Origin: a virus
Direction: 5' to 3' (one strand)
IMG/VR virus record: IMGVR_UViG_3300044712_000062
Coordinates: 1-43,737 of that record
Length of the DNA: 43,737 nt
Under the pieces are notes generated by a model. That model was not told the origin of the DNA. It was given only the letters and a program-made list of their open reading frames with translations, and searched no databases. Positions 3,879-18,639 of this stretch are shown piece by piece. The translations under genes and the position numbers were made by a program. Position 1 is the stretch's first letter. The number at the start of each line of letters is the position of its first letter.

Positions 3879-6800
3879 TTAGAAGTCAGCTTTTCTTCTA
3901 AGCCCTTGCACGAGTGGCGCCAAACGGTCTTTGCGTTCTTTAAGAATGGCTAACTCAGTTGCTTTCTCTTCTGCCGACATACCTTTTTCAGGGTTCTTTT
4001 CTCGGCTTGGTAGGTTACGCACGTAATTTTCCCTACGCTTTATGTTCTCCAACTCTTTAACTGTGCCAGCAGGATTGTGCATAAGGTCTTTGTACTTGTC
4101 ACGGTACGCTTCAGCCGCTTTGTTGTCGGTTTCGTTTAGCTTTTTGTACGTCTTTAACGCACGGTCAAACTCTTTTTTGGCTTCGTACAAATCTTCTGCG
4201 ACAGCCATATTTTCATCTCTGCTAAACGAAGCACCAACGCTAGGTAGCTTTGCCAATACTTCTTTTGTTGAGCGGGCAGGTCTAGGTATGTCACGGGCTT
4301 CTGAAATCAGCCCACCAAACAACATGTCAAACAACTGTGCTGTCGTACCAAAATAGCCTTTAACAAAGTGCTCAATCATCAACGGAGATGTATTTGTTGC
4401 GGCGCCTATAGCCTTTGCGTATTCAGCAGTAGTAGCGTTGAACTGTAGTCTAGGCTCTAAAGCTTTCATGTGCTCAGGCACAATGTCTTGCCCAGTATGG
4501 ATGTTGACACCCAACGCACCTTCAATAGTCGGTTTAAATAGCTGAGGCACACCTTCGCTAGGAGGTATAAGCGAGTTCAATGCAACGTTCTTTAGAGACC
4601 CCTTCAAAGATTTTGTATCTACGCCACGGTCTTCTAACTCACGGAACATATTTCTGTAAGCGTACTGCGCTAAAATGTGTGGCAACACATACACGTCTTC
4701 ACGAACTGCAAGACCCATACCATCTGTGCCAGGGATGTTAAAGATGCGGTTCTTAGCGGCACGACTGCGTTTTGCGTATTCATCTTCCTCATCAGCCATA
4801 TCACTGAGAGCGGCTAACAAGAAACTAAATGTAGCAATCTTAGCGGACACAATAGCTAAAGTTGCCAATCCCTGCGCACGTGTTTGGTAAGTGATACCTT
4901 TGCCTGATAGGGTCTTAAGTATGAGAGCCGCAGATTGTAGGTATGAGTTAAAGAAGATAACTGAACTGCTTAGTGAGTTAACGCCTTTGATACCGCTCTT
5001 GTTGCGGAAGTTCATAATCTCAACCACAGCAGTTTCAGCTTTTTGTGGTGTTGCACCTTCACTGCGTAGCTGGTTATAAACGGCTTGACGGATTATGTTT
5101 TCAGATGTTGCACCGAATCTATCTAATAAGTGCATTACTCTGCGGTACGCACTAGGTGGAACAATGTCTTGGGCATACTTAATTGAGTCTTCATCAAGCT
5201 GAGCGTTGTACTCGTGCGTGCTCAAAAGACCACGTCTAACTAAGTCTTTACGTGTTTGGCTCATACCAACAGTTGTTTTGACTGCTTCGCTAAGTAAGCG
5301 TACAACAAGAGCACCTGGGTTTCTAATACCTGATGTAAACATAGCCGCATACAAGTCGGCAGGGATTTGACCCACGGAGAACAACGGAATACGAGTGATG
5401 TTCTTTCTAGCAATATCGCTAGCGCCCTTGGCGATGCTCATCAATGGGTAGATGTACGCACCTTGCTGTACAAACGCTTGCGCAATTTCAGGGCTATCTA
5501 CGTTGTATGTACGTTCAACACCGTTTTCCATTACAGTGAAGTTACCCTTGTTTGGGTCTCTGCCTTCACGAACTTCGTCTGGTAAGTATGCCTTGTACTG
5601 GTCAAGCATACGTTTAATTTGGCGGTTACTTATAGACCCAGCAATAGCCCATTGCATCCACTGACGCATATTGGAAGTCACACTGGTTACTTCTTCCATC
5701 GAGCCTTTGTACTTAGCACGTAACGGTGCCATGGTCTCACGCAAACCTTTAGTCATTATTTGCTGAGCTTCTTCAGTTGCACTCTCGACATCACGGAAGA
5801 ACGGTACGTAGGCAGCCTCATCAAGCCATGTTTGGGCTTTTTCTTCTGTAAGAAGCCCTGTCTCTACCATTAAATCAACTACACGCTGACGCATTACGTT
5901 CCACACCCTAGTCGCTTCTTGGATTTCAGGGTGGTCGTTGTATAGCGCCATACCTGCCTTAATATTGGCACGGTCTTTGTGCATCATTTGGTCGGTGTAC
6001 AACTCGATACGTTCTTTGAGTTCTTTGACCAATTCTTTTTTAAGGTTAAGTTCTTTACGTGCTGTATCAATACGAGCATTTTCAGCTCTGTCAAAAGCTC
6101 TTTGTTCAGTTGCTGTGCGAGTGCCCGCAGGGGTTCTTTGACGTTTTACATCGTTCTCAAGGAAAGCAACACGATTTTCTGCACGAGTTAATTCTGACTT
6201 AGCTTTTATCAGCTTGTCATCTACGCTTTGTAAGCGGTTAGCTTCAAGGGCTTGGTCAATATAACTTAGAGCAACTTCAGGGGTAACACCTAAGCGTTTA
6301 GCTAGGGCATTAGCCAAGTCACCAAATACAGCCATGTTATCTTTATCAGCCGTTGGGTCGTACGTGTTTGTGATGGGGTCGTACTTCCAATTACCTCTAT
6401 CCATCATCTGCACGGCTAACTGTGCACGTTGTGTAATCTGTGCACCAATCAAACCAAGCATCGTGGCTTCAGCTTGTGCGTGGGTAATAGAGCCTTTCTT
6501 TTCTAGCTCCAAAGTTTCTTTACGCATCAAGTTTAAGAACGCCTGGTTATTAGCGGCGAAGTTTTGTAGGTTACCAAATACTGCACTACCAACGTTTAAG
6601 TTGCCATTTCTTACGGCTTGTAACTTATTAAGCGTACGTTTAAAGAAACTTGCTTTAGGTACTGGACCAGCACTTGCGGCAAACGCCGCTGAATCTTTCT
6701 CAGCTTTCTCAGCTTCAGGGGTACGTTGTACTTTAGCAACATCTAAATCAGCTTGTTGGCGTACACCAGCCTGCACATCTTCTTGCACCTTACGGCCTGT

Positions 6801-9371
6801 GGAAAGGGCGCCCTCGACAGCCATCAATGCACCCGCTAAAGCATCAATATCAGCAATACCAGATTGGTCAGGGCTAATACCCATAGCACGTAAAACAGCC
6901 CTAGCAAACTCAGTAAATACGTTTGAACGGCGGTATGGTGTATTGCGTAAATCGTTTTGGAAGTCAGGGTTAGACATGGCTTCTGAGGCAAACTCAGATA
7001 GGTCTTTCATGCCGTACTTGTCAATTAAATCAGGACGTGTTTTCTTAACGTGGTTGTACACATCTTTAAGGCTATTTAAACGAGTGTTACCGCCTAAGCC
7101 TCTAGCTTCACGTGCTTCAGATTGCCTAATCATAGCGTGCAAGAAACCATGCGTTGTTTCATGTAACACTGTATGGGAATCAATATTTCCAGTAGTAATC
7201 TGCACCGTGTCGGTGTTTGGGTCGTACTGAGCTGGGGCTCCATTAGTAACGTCTGGCGTTACTATTTCTACTTTAGGTAAGGTCTTGGCTTGTAATAAAC
7301 GTCTAGCTACTAACTTATCTAATGGAGTGTACTGGTCACTTGTAGCAATCTCTTCAAGCGCACCTTTAAGGTCACCCTGCGTAATGCGGTCTGCTAAATT
7401 GATTGTAGCCTTACCTTTTAGCTCACCCTCAATTTTAGGTGTTTTGGTTAGTGTACCCTGCCCAGTTTGGTCAACAACTCCTGTTCCTGCAACAGGTCCT
7501 CCAGCAGTTGGCTCAGTGCCAGCCAGTCCTGTAGTTGTAGGTGCTGTAGTTCCTTCGGCGGTTCCAGGTTGTCCACTAGGCATAGAAACGCTTGGCTCAC
7601 CTGTTCTGGTTTCAGCGATAGGTACTGTTCCTGTTTGCTCAACTGGGGCCTCCTGTCTTTGCTCAAATGCGTTGAGGTAATTCTCAACCGCAGCCATATC
7701 AATTTTAGCTTTCTTGATTGTATGCTTATCTACAGCATCAATAAACTTTTGCCTGTCTTCAGGGTCGGTCATATCAAGATTTAACAACTCTTGGCGAATC
7801 GGTGCTTTAGGTGCCAAACCAAACTTAGCTAGCACTTTCTTATTAACAATAGGTGACGGACCTTTTAGGTCAAGGTCATCCTTGGTCTTGTCAAATGAAA
7901 CGCCTTCTTTCTCAAGTTGTTTGCCTTCAGCACTAAGTTCTTCTTGGCGTGCAACAACCTGCTCAATCTGTGAATCAATAGCTTTAATCTGCTCAGTGAT
8001 AGCAGCTTTGCCATCTAGAGTTTTTTCAGCGTCACGAGCCTGTTCTAACTCAGCTTTTTGTTGGCCAAGTGCAGTGCCCTTGCGGTATAGCGTAACAAAC
8101 TCTTCACCTAAACGAATAGCTTTTTGTTGCCCAGTTTCTTGAACAAGTGGTTCAAGTTTGGAAATGTCGTCACGAATCGCAGCTGCTTGCTGTGGGTCTG
8201 TTGTTTCAGCTAACTGTTGTTTTAATGCAACAATCTGTTCTTCTGCACGGTCACTTGCTTCTTGACGTGCTTGTGCCTCAACGCTAACGTCGCCAGGTGT
8301 AACCTGATACGGCGCTTCTTCTTTAGTAAACAATTCACCCTGCTTAGTTAACGGAGCGGCTTGTGTAGTTTCGGTAGTTTCAGTCTGTACAGGGCGTAGC
8401 ACACCTGTCTGTGGGTCAATCTCAAACTTTGGCTCTTCTGTTGTAGAGGTAGTAGGCGGTGTTTTTGGACGAAAAGCTTCTCTAGTTCCTTGAGCACCTG
8501 CACCTAAACCGCCGCCTACAATAGCACCTTCAATCATTTGCTCGGCTAAGTCGCCGTAATCAACACCTCTTTTAGTGCCAGCTGTTCCGCCTAAATACCC
8601 AATACCTTCTTCAATAGCTTCTGTGCCCGACTGAATTGCGGTTTCTTTACCAATACGCCCAGCACCTGTTTTTGCGGCAGTTGGTTTAAATAGACGACCA
8701 GTAGCAGTTTTTTCTAAATACGTTTCTAAAAGCGCCGCCCCTGCTGCTGTAGCAACATCACTTATAGTTGCGTCTTTTAATTTCTTTTCATCGTTCTTAA
8801 TTCGCTCATTAAGAATTTCGTTTGTGCGAGCCGTTACATATGCTGGGGCAAGAGTTACGGCAGCTGCCATATCTGGCGTAGATGTAATTACACGCTCAGC
8901 AATAAACGGTATCAGTTTAAGTGGGTTTCCAGGTAGTTCACCTAGTTTTGTAGATGGTGAATACCCAATATCAGCACCCCAATTTTTTAAATTAGTTGCA
9001 GTGCTTTGTAGGTTTTTATAGGTATCAGGGTCAAAATTAATAGTCGGTACGGAAGACTTTTCTCTTAAAGCCTGCATACCCGCACGCTCTTCTTCCGTAA
9101 GGCTACCTTCCATTTTTTTACCAAGAGCTTCTGCGCCTCTAGTAAAACCTTCAAGACCTTGCCCAAGAACGGTAGAACCCCGTGCTAACAAACCCATTAA
9201 TGGGTTAGTAGTTTTAGTCTCTGTCTGTTGACGTTCAACAGGTACCTCTTCCACAGGTGGTACAGCAGGTGGAGCAGATGCGCCTAAGTAACTTAAAATC
9301 TTTTCTTTGGCTGCGTTGACGTCATCTGTAGCGACTTCATATCGCTGACCTTTGTATTCGTAGATAGGCAT
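3879..9371 (-). CDS. Giant polyvalent internal virion / ejection protein with HETTH metallopeptidase-like motif
   Basis: A 1830-residue protein, last gene of the late operon. The N-terminus (MPIYEYKGQRYEVATDD) is a short module also seen on other phage ejection proteins. Residues about 363-490 are a Gln/Glu-rich coiled coil, followed by a Pro/Thr/Gly linker (about 580-650). Residues 737-741 are HETTH in a VLHETTHGFLHAMI context, a zinc-peptidase-type motif. A second charged coiled coil lies near 1049-1126. Around 1454-1525 is a segment (FFNSYLQSAALILKTL, then a hydrophobic helix) resembling large polyvalent protein associated domain 38 (LPD38). Such proteins are packaged in the capsid and enter the host with the DNA. 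AAGG lies ahead of the ATG. The peptidase activity is inferred from the motif only. Confidence 0.8.
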   Translation of the reverse strand: MPIYEYKGQRYEVATDDVNAAKEKILSYLGASAPPAVPPVEEVPVERQQTETKTTNPLMGLLARGSTVLGQGLEGFTRGAEALGKKMEGSLTEEERAGMQALREKSSVPTINFDPDTYKNLQSTATNLKNWGADIGYSPSTKLGELPGNPLKLIPFIAERVITSTPDMAAAVTLAPAYVTARTNEILNERIKNDEKKLKDATISDVATAAGAALLETYLEKTATGRLFKPTAAKTGAGRIGKETAIQSGTEAIEEGIGYLGGTAGTKRGVDYGDLAEQMIEGAIVGGGLGAGAQGTREAFRPKTPPTTSTTEEPKFEIDPQTGVLRPVQTETTETTQAAPLTKQGELFTKEEAPYQVTPGDVSVEAQARQEASDRAEEQIVALKQQLAETTDPQQAAAIRDDISKLEPLVQETGQQKAIRLGEEFVTLYRKGTALGQQKAELEQARDAEKTLDGKAAITEQIKAIDSQIEQVVARQEELSAEGKQLEKEGVSFDKTKDDLDLKGPSPIVNKKVLAKFGLAPKAPIRQELLNLDMTDPEDRQKFIDAVDKHTIKKAKIDMAAVENYLNAFEQRQEAPVEQTGTVPIAETRTGEPSVSMPSGQPGTAEGTTAPTTTGLAGTEPTAGGPVAGTGVVDQTGQGTLTKTPKIEGELKGKATINLADRITQGDLKGALEEIATSDQYTPLDKLVARRLLQAKTLPKVEIVTPDVTNGAPAQYDPNTDTVQITTGNIDSHTVLHETTHGFLHAMIRQSEAREARGLGGNTRLNSLKDVYNHVKKTRPDLIDKYGMKDLSEFASEAMSNPDFQNDLRNTPYRRSNVFTEFARAVLRAMGISPDQSGIADIDALAGALMAVEGALSTGRKVQEDVQAGVRQQADLDVAKVQRTPEAEKAEKDSAAFAASAGPVPKASFFKRTLNKLQAVRNGNLNVGSAVFGNLQNFAANNQAFLNLMRKETLELEKKGSITHAQAEATMLGLIGAQITQRAQLAVQMMDRGNWKYDPITNTYDPTADKDNMAVFGDLANALAKRLGVTPEVALSYIDQALEANRLQSVDDKLIKAKSELTRAENRVAFLENDVKRQRTPAGTRTATEQRAFDRAENARIDTARKELNLKKELVKELKERIELYTDQMMHKDRANIKAGMALYNDHPEIQEATRVWNVMRQRVVDLMVETGLLTEEKAQTWLDEAAYVPFFRDVESATEEAQQIMTKGLRETMAPLRAKYKGSMEEVTSVTSNMRQWMQWAIAGSISNRQIKRMLDQYKAYLPDEVREGRDPNKGNFTVMENGVERTYNVDSPEIAQAFVQQGAYIYPLMSIAKGASDIARKNITRIPLFSVGQIPADLYAAMFTSGIRNPGALVVRLLSEAVKTTVGMSQTRKDLVRRGLLSTHEYNAQLDEDSIKYAQDIVPPSAYRRVMHLLDRFGATSENIIRQAVYNQLRSEGATPQKAETAVVEIMNFRNKSGIKGVNSLSSSVIFFNSYLQSAALILKTLSGKGITYQTRAQGLATLAIVSAKIATFSFLLAALSDMADEEDEYAKRSRAAKNRIFNIPGTDGMGLAVREDVYVLPHILAQYAYRNMFRELEDRGVDTKSLKGSLKNVALNSLIPPSEGVPQLFKPTIEGALGVNIHTGQDIVPEHMKALEPRLQFNATTAEYAKAIGAATNTSPLMIEHFVKGYFGTTAQLFDMLFGGLISEARDIPRPARSTKEVLAKLPSVGASFSRDENMAVAEDLYEAKKEFDRALKTYKKLNETDNKAAEAYRDKYKDLMHNPAGTVKELENIKRRENYVRNLPSREKNPEKGMSAEEKATELAILKERKDRLAPLVQGLRRKADF

Positions 9372-15760: not shown

Positions 15761-16237
15761 CTAAGATTCGTATAGGGCTTTTTCGCCCCTGCGACGTTTA
15801 TCTAACCCTTTTAGCACTTTACCACCAGCTTTGTTCCACTTCAAGAACTCTTCTGCCGCACCTTCAAAATCTTTACGATTGTGCTTCATGCGTAGGGTGC
15901 TGTTTTGTAAGTTACCAAGACCCACATTAAACGAGAAGCTAACCAAAGCATCAAACTGACCTTGTGTCATATCACCTGGGCACAAGCGGTGAACACCCGC
16001 TTCAAAGCGGGCTAGGTCTTGCTTAAGAATGCTGTTGACTTCATCCATGCTTAGAACACGATTCCAACCTTCAGGAATAGGTAATGCCTTTCGATTAGCC
16101 AACGGCACTCTAGCATGGTTAGGGTCAATAACATGGCCGACGCCCACGGTCCATAACAGAGCGGGGCATTGGTAAGGAGACGTTCTAACACCTTCATCAT
16201 GTTTCACCATCTCAATAAGCTTATCGCTTACTTTCAC
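15761..16237 (-). CDS. Endolysin, GH24 lysozyme (muramidase)
   Basis: A 158-residue T4-type lysozyme that cuts the glycan strands of peptidoglycan at lysis. The catalytic triad spacing is E15-x8-C24-x5-T30, inside KHDEGVRTSPYQ and LLWTVGVGH, equivalent to T4 E11/D20/T26. A Cys in place of the Asp is a known variant in lambdoid-type endolysins. The C-terminus has GLDKRRRGEKALYES, a typical GH24 end. There is no signal peptide or SAR helix, so it should need the holin encoded just upstream, whose stop overlaps this start by four bases. Confidence 0.92.
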   Translation of the reverse strand: MKVSDKLIEMVKHDEGVRTSPYQCPALLWTVGVGHVIDPNHARVPLANRKALPIPEGWNRVLSMDEVNSILKQDLARFEAGVHRLCPGDMTQGQFDALVSFSFNVGLGNLQNSTLRMKHNRKDFEGAAEEFLKWNKAGGKVLKGLDKRRRGEKALYES

Positions 16238-16737
16238 TTTTTAGACCACCCACGTGAACCGAACCAGTAGCCGATAATACCGCCAAGCATAGCCATCTCG
16301 TCATCACTGAAAATTTCATCAGAAATTCTTAGCAAGTCATCAATACCATTAATAACGCCTGGGTGTGTAAATACATAGATACCAATACCTACGTTAATCA
16401 CGAACAACTCAGCCACGAACAAGTATGTCACCATCGGGCGCACAGTAGCCACAAATGTAGAAGCCCACGGAGCTGCCTTAGCTAACACCTTAGCATCATG
16501 CTCATAAGCAGCCTTAGTCATGTCAGCATCTGTCTGCATCATCACCTGGTCGGTGCGAATCTCTTCCATCTTGGCTTGCGCCAAGTAGCCACGCTCTAGC
16601 ATCTGTAGCTCACGCTCAGTCTGCATTTTGGCAAGCTCTAGCTCATGCGCCTTGTCAGACTTATCTTGAAAGAAGCCCAATACGCTTGGCAAGCCTGATA
16701 TTAGCAAGCCGCCTAGTGTTGAAATTAGCGATAACAT
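16234..16737 (-). CDS. Holin, three-TM gene-transfer-agent type
   Basis: A 167-residue membrane protein. A hydrophobic N-terminal segment (3-22), a charged helical stretch (25-80), a long hydrophobic region (about 93-123, FVATVRPMVTYLFVAELF) and a C-terminal hydrophobic patch ending YWFGSRGWSKK match the layout of the 3-TM GTA-type holins. It forms the membrane hole that releases the endolysin. It is adjacent to, and overlaps, the endolysin gene by four bases, and directly follows the coiled-coil membrane protein gene. Confidence 0.8.
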   Translation of the reverse strand: MLSLISTLGGLLISGLPSVLGFFQDKSDKAHELELAKMQTERELQMLERGYLAQAKMEEIRTDQVMMQTDADMTKAAYEHDAKVLAKAAPWASTFVATVRPMVTYLFVAELFVINVGIGIYVFTHPGVINGIDDLLRISDEIFSDDEMAMLGGIIGYWFGSRGWSKK

Positions 16738-17190
16738 TTAGTTCCCCAATCGGTTAGTTGTTGCACGTTTTAGTGTATTCATCTCAGAGCGTAGAGTAGA
16801 ACTTGTCACATCTAGCTCAACTTTTTGTGCGGCTAAGCCAGAACGTAGTTCTTTCTGTGTGCTTTCTGCAACAATTTTTGCTTCACGAGCCGCCATTAAT
16901 GCTTCGGCTAAACGTTCCTGCATCTTAGCAATCACTTCACGTTGGTCAGCTACCTTTTCTTCTAGTATCTTGACCTTGCGCTCTGCGCTGGATGCGGATG
17001 AGGCAGTGTCGCTATAGCCTTCATACATCTCTTTGACTTCGTTGAACTTGGTAATGCCTGTATAGCCAGCACCTAAAATAGCAGGTACGCCAGCAATAAT
17101 GAAGCCAGCTACCATGGTGTTCTGCTTGGCCCAAGTCACCCACTTCTCTACGAAGCCCTGTACCTTATCTAATTTTTCTAAATCGCTCAT
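16738..17190 (-). CDS. Membrane-anchored coiled-coil protein, possible inner-membrane spanin or holin partner
   Basis: A 150-residue protein with one transmembrane helix at about 26-46 (MVAGFIIAGVPAILGAGYTG) and a long charged coiled coil at about 65-140 (KVKILEEKVADQREVIAKMQ). One N-proximal TM plus a long periplasmic coiled coil is the layout of Rz-type i-spanins. It lies immediately before the holin in the lysis cassette. Its ATG overlaps the stop of the 338-aa secreted protein (ATGA), so the two are translationally coupled. No obvious lipobox-bearing o-spanin is visible next to it, so the spanin label is an inference. Confidence 0.6.
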   Translation of the reverse strand: MSDLEKLDKVQGFVEKWVTWAKQNTMVAGFIIAGVPAILGAGYTGITKFNEVKEMYEGYSDTASSASSAERKVKILEEKVADQREVIAKMQERLAEALMAAREAKIVAESTQKELRSGLAAQKVELDVTSSTLRSEMNTLKRATTNRLGN

Positions 17191-18203
17191 TGCTCAAATC
17201 CTAAGTCTGGTGCATCAAATGGTTGGTTATAGCTTGGTTGTTGCAGCAGGTCCATCATTATTAAGTCCTGCGTCAGTATGTTGTTTGGTACCCCACTCAC
17301 TAGCTGTGGTTCTGAGAATACGTTCGCTTGTTGTAGTCCAGGTTTCGCAAATAGCTCCAACGACAACACAAGGCCAACCGCTGACCTTACTTTGCCCCTT
17401 GGTGGAGGGGATGGGGATACCTGTGTAGTCGATGTTGTCTGCGAACCCGTCTTTGTCTCCGAGGCACTCGTTGGGGCAGACCCTGTCGTTGCAGATGAGC
17501 CCGCTGTCGGGGCATCGCTTGTTTCCGTCGACGATGTTGTCGGGGTTGCTGCCGAGCTCAGCACAGAATTTGGGGTCGACGCAGTTACAGGTGAGGATTG
17601 GATTGTTGGGGCAGATATGCTCGAAGTTGGACTCAATGGGCTCACAGGCGACACAGGATTGGTCGGATTGTTTATCGACTTCTTGCAAGTGTCTGATGTA
17701 GTCACCCAAGGTTGCCACTGCGGGCTTCCGTACGGGTTCGGACACGTCGAGGAACGAGTCTGGGTAATGCTCCCCGTATAACTGGTCTGGCATTGAAGCG
17801 TCTGTTGTTGGCTGCTTACTTGGCATGTTGGCGGGTTCGGCGTGCAGGTGTTGCTGACTGTTTGCCACTCTGTCCACGTACCGCTGGGGCAGATTTTGGT
17901 TTTGCTTTGCGTGATGATGCCGCTGTAGTTTGCTGGGCAGCTTTGGGTTTGGAACTGGGTTTCGCTGTTACAGACTTGGACTGGCGGCGGGGCTTGGTAG
18001 TTGGGACAGAAGGCTTGCTGCCAGCTTTGCGAGTACGCGCCTGGGGCACAGGCCCAGCAGTCGGCGTTGGCTGTACAGGAGTTTCCGAAGGTTGTGTTTG
18101 GACGCCAAGCAGACGTGCAATAGCAGTAATTAGATTGCGCAAAAACATCATTGCTCCTTGGTAGGGTTAGCAGTAAGGTCAACAAGAGGAGGAACCGAAC
18201 CAT
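17187..18203 (-). CDS. Secreted Cys-rich protein with thrombospondin-like repeats and Ser/Thr/Pro-rich stalk
   Basis: A 338-residue product with a clear signal peptide (MVRFLLLLTLLLTL, cleavage predicted after VFA at about residue 22). The mature N-terminal part is Cys-rich and carries at least two repeats of the form QTQSCPANYSGIITQ...W...TC and QTLQCQTSYTGSITQ...W...TC (about 85-173), resembling thrombospondin type 1-like modules. A Ser/Thr/Pro stalk follows (about 178-270), then a short C-terminal region. The start lies within the end of the 163-aa gene with only a weak ribosome site. The stop overlaps the next ATG (ATGA). Two other frames inside this gene are also gene-like (17816-18151 and 17227-17826), so the C-terminal half may be overprinted or bypassed by frameshifting. 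Confidence 0.7.
   Translation of the reverse strand: MVRFLLLLTLLLTLPRSNDVFAQSNYCYCTSAWRPNTTFGNSCTANADCWACAPGAYSQSWQQAFCPNYQAPPPVQVCNSETQFQTQSCPANYSGIITQSKTKICPSGTWTEWQTVSNTCTPNPPTCQVSSQQQTLQCQTSYTGSITQTRSSTCPNPYGSPQWQPWVTTSDTCKKSINNPTNPVSPVSPLSPTSSISAPTIQSSPVTASTPNSVLSSAATPTTSSTETSDAPTAGSSATTGSAPTSASETKTGSQTTSTTQVSPSPPPRGKVRSAVGLVLSLELFAKPGLQQANVFSEPQLVSGVPNNILTQDLIMMDLLQQPSYNQPFDAPDLGFEQ
17227..17826 (-). CDS. Candidate overprinted Cys-rich protein nested in the secreted-protein gene
   Basis: A 199-residue frame starting at the ATG of MPSKQPTTDASMPDQ, which overlaps the stop of the nested 111-aa frame by 11 bases. The frame stays open further upstream, to a GTG at 17877. It has an amphipathic stretch (LGDYIRHLQEVDKQS) and nine cysteines, eight of them clustered (for example CVACEP, CNCVDPKFC, RCPDSGLICNDRVCPNECLG). 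From about 17640 to 17430 most codons in this frame end in C or G (GAC, AAC, TGC, ATC, GTC), a strong third-position bias typical of coding DNA, whereas the 338-aa frame over the same bases is a low-complexity Ser/Thr/Ala run. No Shine-Dalgarno precedes the ATG. It may be reached by coupling or frameshift, or be a C-rich accident. The function is unknown. Confidence 0.4.
   Translation of the reverse strand: MPSKQPTTDASMPDQLYGEHYPDSFLDVSEPVRKPAVATLGDYIRHLQEVDKQSDQSCVACEPIESNFEHICPNNPILTCNCVDPKFCAELGSNPDNIVDGNKRCPDSGLICNDRVCPNECLGDKDGFADNIDYTGIPIPSTKGQSKVSGWPCVVVGAICETWTTTSERILRTTASEWGTKQHTDAGLNNDGPAATTKL
17816..18151 (-). CDS. Candidate overprinted basic protein with amphipathic N-terminus
   Basis: A 111-residue frame nested in the secreted-protein gene. 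It begins MMFLRNLITAIARLLGVQT, an amphipathic or membrane-active helix, then a long Pro/Lys/Arg/Ala/Ser-rich basic tail (RKAGSKPSVPTTKPRRQ, SSRKAKPKSAP). Its start is the best in this locus: AAGGAG lies two bases before the first ATG and five before the second, and the ATG overlaps the stop of the 163-aa gene as ATGA. The basic tail might bind nucleic acid or lipopolysaccharide; this is a guess from composition. The open frame could also reflect the base composition of the overlapping gene. Confidence 0.45.
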   Translation of the reverse strand: MMFLRNLITAIARLLGVQTQPSETPVQPTPTAGPVPQARTRKAGSKPSVPTTKPRRQSKSVTAKPSSKPKAAQQTTAASSRKAKPKSAPAVRGQSGKQSATPARRTRQHAK

Positions 18204-18639
18204 ATAATTTCACAAACTTTTCAGGATAACGTTTAATCCACTCATTGCGAGCTGCATCACCAATGAGACCATCTATCGGGCAAGGGGTTCCTGACAACAT
18301 CATGGCTTGCCAATTTTCTTCTTTTGCCTGACACGCAACAGCCACAGCTGCTACTTTAAGACCTTGGTTGGCTAAGAATGTAGCCCACTTACGGCTAGAG
18401 CAATCCTCATCCATTTTGTAAGAACCACCAGAGAAACCAAACACCGTAGAGCTAACAGCACCTGAGACGGCAACTAAACAATTGTCTTGGCTGAAAGAAC
18501 TTATAGACGGCGCCATAGCAGCTGCTGGAGGCTGCCCACGGTAATTAATCGTAGTGTCTTGGGCCATCGAAGCGGCGACTAAACCACCAAGAATGATGCC
18601 CCCAAGAAACCAACAAGTTAATTGAGCTATTTTTACCAT
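18148..18639 (-). CDS. Secreted or membrane-anchored Cys-containing phage protein
   Basis: A 163-residue protein with an N-terminal hydrophobic segment (residues 5-26, ending VAASMAQ) that reads as a signal peptide or anchor. The mature part has four cysteines in two pairs (DNCLVAVSGA, DEDCSSRKWA, VACQAKEEN, GTPCPIDG) and a helix with AxxLANQGLKVAAVAVAC. I recall similar hypothetical proteins in phages of beta-proteobacteria but no function. The ATG overlaps the stop of the zinc-ribbon gene, and its own stop overlaps the nested 111-aa start, so it belongs to a translationally coupled string that leads into the lysis cassette. Confidence 0.65.
   Translation of the reverse strand: MVKIAQLTCWFLGGIILGGLVAASMAQDTTINYRGQPPAAAMAPSISSFSQDNCLVAVSGAVSSTVFGFSGGSYKMDEDCSSRKWATFLANQGLKVAAVAVACQAKEENWQAMMLSGTPCPIDGLIGDAARNEWIKRYPEKFVKLYGSVPPLVDLTANPTKEQ

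Follow-up and report, generated by a model that had tools for sequence, protein, structure and literature searches.

A 1-kb stretch of a viral genome probably carries three same-strand genes in a coupled, overlapping layout

Three predicted protein-coding genes, p338, p111 and p199, most probably share a 1-kb stretch of the minus strand in a coupled layout, a reading to which we assign a probability of about 85% from comparative sequence analysis. The window analysed here, 43,737 bases long, is a virus record from IMG/VR, and the stretch lies in a minus-strand series running p163, p338, p150, a holin-like gene (p167) and an endolysin (Table 1). All three frames, which had been pointed out in an earlier note on this DNA, are intact ORFs with exactly the coordinates given in the table. 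They had also been described as overlapping over about 1 kb, and 981 of the 1017 nt of p338 (96%) are indeed common to p163, p111, p199 or p150; because p111 and then p199 are placed in succession along p338, however, the coding is mostly two-fold, and it is three-fold only at 18151..18148 (4 nt, p163/p111 junction) and 17826..17816 (11 nt, p111/p199 junction). The 3' end of p163 holds the start of p338, 52 nt upstream of the p111 start, which itself sits on the p163 stop (AAGGAGCAATGATG), and p199 overlies the second Cys repeat and the disordered linker of p338. Two coupled chains had been drawn through the locus, 163-338-150 and 163-111-199-150. The first is tight at p338/p150, where stop and start overlap as ATGA, whereas the second is loose at its last step, where 36 nt separate the end of p199 from the p150 start, and only p338 has a tight stop-start junction with p150.

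No named phage was found by a DNA similarity search with the window. Its portal and stabilisation proteins most resemble those of phage DSL-LC04, Pelagibacter phages HTVC027P/HTVC023P and Planktothrix phage Pag-Yong1, a likeness suggestive of a podovirus of the 57-65 kb type. Elsewhere in the window, a 298-aa ORF (6334..7230, plus strand) lies antisense to an 1830-aa gene (9371..3879).

Table 1. Features of the overlapping locus and its immediate context in the window.
Feature	Coordinates	Strand	Description and evidence
p163	18639..18148	-	Small exported protein with conserved Cys; PHROG_20531, E=2.5e-6; ORF; alignment; 594 matching stretches in IMG/VR
p338	18203..17187	-	Host frame of both overlaps; ORF, 42 homologous loci, purifying selection, AF2 model
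p111 ribosome-binding site and start	18144..18164	-	AAGGAG...ATGATG overlapping the p163 stop TGA
p111	18151..17816	-	Nested, +1 frame of p338
ATGCCAAGTAA	17816..17826	-	p199 start overlapping p111 stop; three-fold coding
p199	17826..17227 (from first ATG)	-	Nested, +2 (-1) frame of p338
p150	17190..16738	-	One N-terminal TM segment and coiled coil; ORF, hydropathy peak at residue 25, pelagiphage counterparts
p167, holin-like (context)	16737..16234	-	phrog_6637, E=1.3e-15; phrog_3427 holin, E=5.9e-5
Endolysin (context)	16237..15761	-	PF00959 Phage_lysozyme, E=6.9e-38

Scanning viral contigs with p338 brought up 42 loci, and 33 non-redundant homologous loci were compared. In about 40 of the 42, tblastn places p338, p111 and p199 in the same frames relative to one another, down to 45-50% p338 identity, and where p338 carries extra Cys repeats (L015, L019 and L039) the p111 frame lengthens alongside to about 160-200 codons and is still open. 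A second scan, with the p163 alignment as query, gave 594 matching stretches in IMG/VR and returned 80 loci, and those with enough sequence have p163, then p338, then p150. The p111 frame is open with an ATG and at least 93 codons in 68 of 76 loci, and is broken or lacks the ATG in L042, L067, L091 and L098. p199 is absent from a sister clade, described below, and from L042, L067, L071, L075 and L091; it is truncated or altered in L026, L029, L032 and L037, and is therefore not indispensable. Weak p199 profile matches in the distant loci L098, L107 and L068 may echo conservation of p338 and were not taken as proof. The earlier note had named a kept p338 with broken nested frames as the pattern that would tell against it; this was seen in L042, L067 and L091 and, as regards p199, in the sister clade, all of them outside the window's own clade.

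Several loci deserve mention in their own right. At L107:4628-5350 the frame in the p199 position is open for 241 codons and strongly acidic (-26 over the final 205 codons); its sequence bears little resemblance to that of p199, and it may be an independent or very divergent overprint. In the C-terminal half of the p338 homologues of L067 and L091 the +1 frame is much more basic than expected from recoding (z +3.6 and +4.8, respectively) and has stops at the expected level, which perhaps hints at other overlapping frames there. At 5364-7114 of L044 (GenBank MW202481), the annotation omits p163, the p111-like gene and p150, and the p338 homologue is labelled 'transport protein tonB'.

The p111 start usually overlaps the p163 stop or lies within a few bases of it, and is preceded in most loci by a strong Shine-Dalgarno sequence (median -5.8 kcal/mol vs a background of -2.2). 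Such a sequence is also present ahead of p150 (median -4.5), the value at the p338 start is near background (-2.7), and an energy scan over the loci found none for p199 (median +0.7). In most loci of the clade the p111 stop is overlapped by the p199 ATG or is no more than about 30 nt away from it, with an 11-nt overlap in most, and stop-start overlap at the p163/p111, p111/p199 and p338/p150 junctions is found across relatives. Endonuclease genes lie exactly between p163 and p338 in two loci (L058:484-1152, GIY-YIG/NUMOD3; L029:4373-5035, NUMOD3/I-HmuI-like); the start of p338 is contained in their 3' ends, which terminate on that of p111, and both p338 and p111 keep their starts and frames despite the insertion. 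The tail of the L058 endonuclease, NPTKEQ, is identical to that of p163 in the window. As predicted from these signals, ribosomes finishing p163 would start p111 at the strong Shine-Dalgarno sequence on the p163 stop and, on finishing p111, would re-initiate at the overlapping p199 ATG without one; p338 would be initiated separately and more weakly at its ATG within p163, and p150 would be coupled to the p338 stop.

Alongside overprinting, the earlier note had allowed for recoding. This could take the form of a programmed frameshift that carries translation from the exported N-terminal region of p338 (or from p111) into the Cys-rich frame of p199 and gives a secreted fusion. p199 does combine many Cys with the lack of a signal peptide, its frame can be reached from p338 by a -1 shift, and in some loci frame 2 stays open a long way upstream. 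However, the p199 ATG is fixed in most of the clade while the p111 stop drifts relative to it, from 13 nt upstream of the ATG to a 32-nt overlap; upstream of the ATG, frame 2 is not maintained as an open stretch, ending just short of it in L010 and L014; and no slippery heptamer was seen by eye at the junction. The pattern of start sites, including that at the two endonuclease insertions, favours coupled initiation and argues against frameshifting, which we regard as very unlikely.

The number of stops expected in the nested frames was obtained by recoding p338 with synonymous codons. The p199 frame contains no stops in any of 29 loci, against 6-15 expected per synonymous recoding, and none in the window taken alone, where about 14 are expected; the +1 control frame across the p199 region has stops mostly at or above prediction. 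Region ends were set at the ORF limits, which biases single loci but too little to explain the p199 effect across all loci. For p111 the test is weak in the window's clade (0.4-4 stops expected), because few p338 codons can make +1 stops, and in the window alone the absence of stops is expected (0.4 predicted) and was rejected as sole proof of p111. In the sister clade the p111 slot is open in 21 of 21 loci vs 2.9-4.6 stops expected. The net charge of p111 is +22, against a recoding null mean of +14.8 (P=0.003), and that of p199 is -13, against a null of +10.6 with an sd of 4.7 (0/3000; 5 SD); since both lie beyond the recoding null, these charges look selected in the window's clade. Acidity was rejected as a family-wide trait of p199, as it is strong mainly around the window's clade, L064 and L107.

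For frame-specific selection, single changes whose local context was otherwise identical were counted and sorted by what they do in each of the two frames; these context-matched counts were used because plain codon-position divergence left the frames unseparated. Over 14 independent pairs and transition weights (kappa) of 1-4, NN/NS was 0.29-0.48 for p199 (P 1e-15 to 1.1e-6) and 0.34-0.45 for p111 (P 2e-5 to 1.4e-3), whereas the control frames gave 0.85-1.17 and 1.59-2.46. All-pair values for p199, 0.31 (0.18-0.51) and 0.29 (0.19-0.45), agree with the independent pairs. Close pairs gave 0.32 (0.14-0.58) for p111, and the effect is weaker in distant pairs, at 0.75 (0.36-1.58) and 0.59 (0.29-1.07). 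The p338 frame shows purifying selection too, with NN/SN of 0.15-0.26 in the window's clade and 0.09-0.19 in the sister clade. Synonymous constraint in this frame, which had been suggested as a check, is borne out by fourfold synonymous differences that are lower in p338 (0.20 and 0.23) than in p163 (0.46), p150 (0.29) or p167 (0.40) in the same pairs. These substitution patterns indicate that p338, p111 and p199 are all under purifying selection in the window's clade. The codon usage of p338 is uncorrelated with that of the phage (0.08 and -0.08), compared with 0.49-0.60 for its neighbours; being anomalous in every frame, it was uninformative as a pointer to the ancestral frame.

The sister clade is well supported in the p163 tree (19 rows, support 100) and includes GenBank MW202481. 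NN/NS for its p111 is 0.40 and 0.37, whereas no second constrained frame is seen in the region matching p199 (NN/NS 1.1-1.5). Because only the p111 slot is constrained there, p111 is common to both clades and p199 is not, and the clade is an internal negative control. Its p111 is hydrophobic as well as basic, with a hydropathy maximum of about 2.0-2.7. p338 is the core gene, since some loci have it but lack p199 and, more rarely, have it but lack p111. In the window's lineage p199 was probably overprinted on p338, the alternative being that the sister clade lost it; the deep branching of the p163 tree is poorly resolved, and the p199 state needs at least 6 changes on it.

These results bear on the view that p338 is the sole gene, its T/N/Q/S/P-rich composition having produced the nested open frames as a by-product, with few stops and basic +1 residues. 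The open p111 frame of the window and part of the p111 charge are indeed to be expected from that composition, but it cannot give the stop avoidance and acidity of p199. Nor does it fit with NN/NS lowered in both nested frames and not in the control frames, with a sister clade showing constraint in p111 and none in the p199 region, or with the strong Shine-Dalgarno sequence ahead of p111 in most loci, and we consider it highly improbable. Both nested frames exceed chance, p199 from its stops alone and p111 from substitution patterns and the sister clade rather than from stops in the window. Overprinting is thus strongly supported by stop avoidance and by frame-specific substitution rates, the two checks that the earlier note had proposed. 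The converse view, that p111 and p199 are true genes and p338 a spurious frame, would suit the better start signals of p111 and the near-background Shine-Dalgarno value of p338, but is close to untenable given the NN/SN of p338 in both clades, its persistence where p199 or p111 is absent, and the confident fold of its Cys repeats together with an N-terminal signal-peptide-like helix.

The p338 protein comprises a signal peptide, a Cys-rich N domain, two Cys repeats, a disordered P/S/T linker (residues 184-306) and a C-terminal helix. The repeats had been likened to thrombospondin. AlphaFold (AF2) places residues 80-175 in a confident two-repeat beta domain, so that the two repeats stand, whereas the thrombospondin assignment is unconfirmed: no Pfam TSP match at E<=0.1 was found in 31 p338 members, and Foldseek/PDB and VIA-align comparisons gave nothing above chance and no meaningful PDB match. 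Sequence searches of Pfam, PHROGs and the PDB with p338, p111 and p199 gave no significant relatives, and one viral match was obtained for p338 (H6BJ76, E=3e-8). p111 consists of a short N-terminal amphipathic/hydrophobic segment and a basic tail. p199 is acidic, Cys-rich and probably disordered or poorly predicted (AF2 pLDDT 42); disorder in one partner is common among overlapping genes (PMC8227390). Signal peptides are present in p338 and p163, and by eye there is none in p111 or p199. The suggestion that the stretch makes several small secreted or lysis-related proteins therefore holds, as to secretion, for the former pair and not the latter, and the link of the locus to lysis is positional.

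A counterpart of the p163-p338-p150 trio was found in pelagiphages HTVC202P, Mosig, HTVC033P, Baldr and HTVC115P (L126, L127, L129, L130 and L131). It consists of a p163-like exported protein, a secreted protein with an E-rich linker, and a TM plus coiled-coil protein ending in NPLG/NPLA; the genes are annotated as hypothetical, apart from one 'carbohydrate binding' label, and have either the large terminase downstream of them or a lysozyme close by. The gene order of HTVC202P gp24-25-26 and HTVC033P gp46-45-44 is the same as that of p163-p338-p150, and the middle protein, like p338, is secreted and has an N-terminal domain, a low-complexity linker and a conserved C-terminus. Unlike p338, the middle gene holds no long nested frame, with 39-86 stops in the alternative frames.

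Our guess at function, which is possible but tentative, is that p163, p338 and p150 would form an envelope module, with p111 as a cationic membrane-active protein and the acidic p199 binding or restraining it, together with the adjacent holin and endolysin. p199 would not be an obligatory antidote, because p111 occurs without it throughout the sister clade. That the locus is an unannotated cluster, spread through uncultured aquatic podoviruses, whose new opposite-charge pair, basic p111 and acidic p199, may act as lysis or envelope effector and restraining partner seems rather doubtful. It could also be read as a two-component spanin, an elaborate analogue of Rz/Rz1 with p150 as the inner-membrane subunit and p338 or p111 as the outer-membrane subunit. 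T7 keeps Rz/Rz1 just upstream of the large terminase, the position in which the pelagiphage trios sit, and p150 has by hydropathy and sequence one TM segment and a coiled coil and adjoins the holin and endolysin. Nested and overlapped architectures are, moreover, common among spanins (PMC6139136). We nevertheless consider a spanin unlikely, since no lipobox is seen at the end of the p338 signal peptide in the aligned family and none is recognisable in p111 or p199, p338 carries a long linker and extra Cys domains, the nested overlap is not with p150, and p150 gave no spanin match against PHROG and Pfam.

Overlaps on this scale are classically associated with tiny genomes. If three coupled genes do share the stretch, a mid-sized tailed dsDNA phage keeps 1 kb of which almost all codes twice, as comparison across dozens of lineages supports, and this one kilobase holds far more genetic information than standard annotation sees. 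Single-frame annotation hides such proteins: the nearest GenBank record, MW202481, annotates a single CDS, 'transport protein tonB', at a place where the evidence points to two genes. The locus bears on why genes overlap where genome size is no obvious limit and offers a setting in which to study de novo gene birth across a disordered linker, and the sister clade, which lacks one layer, can help to date the birth of the p199 layer.

In the part of the literature covered by our search, no description of this layout was found, and besides the pelagiphage trio the nearest comparisons are with three known systems. The disruptin of phage phiKT is a cationic outer-membrane disruptor. Like disruptin, p111 is small, strongly cationic and close to lysis genes, with amphipathic/hydrophobic segments, but it is about twice as long, and the likeness to a cationic lysis protein observed here lies in its charge. 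Lambda Rz/Rz1 and other embedded or overlapped spanins share with the locus a same-strand, out-of-frame nested gene beside the holin and endolysin, and such spanin genes are often missed by annotation (PMC6139136). The window differs in having no lipoprotein signal and in nesting two genes (111 and 199 aa) within a 338-aa exported protein, and its membrane coiled-coil gene lies downstream, overlapped by 4 nt only. In phiX174 (A/B/K/C and D/E), as here, several same-strand genes in different frames are overprinted on an older gene with overlapping starts and stops, and the disorder and restricted distribution typical of overprinted proteins are shared as well (PMC8227390). The window, by contrast, is a dsDNA podovirus record of 43.7 kb in which p338 is covered over 96% by four genes. 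Judged by its sequence, the locus would belong with the known overprinted genes of phiX174 and Rz/Rz1, and what appears unusual is a widespread and unannotated arrangement in which, in a tailed phage of middling size, a coupled chain covers one gene almost completely.
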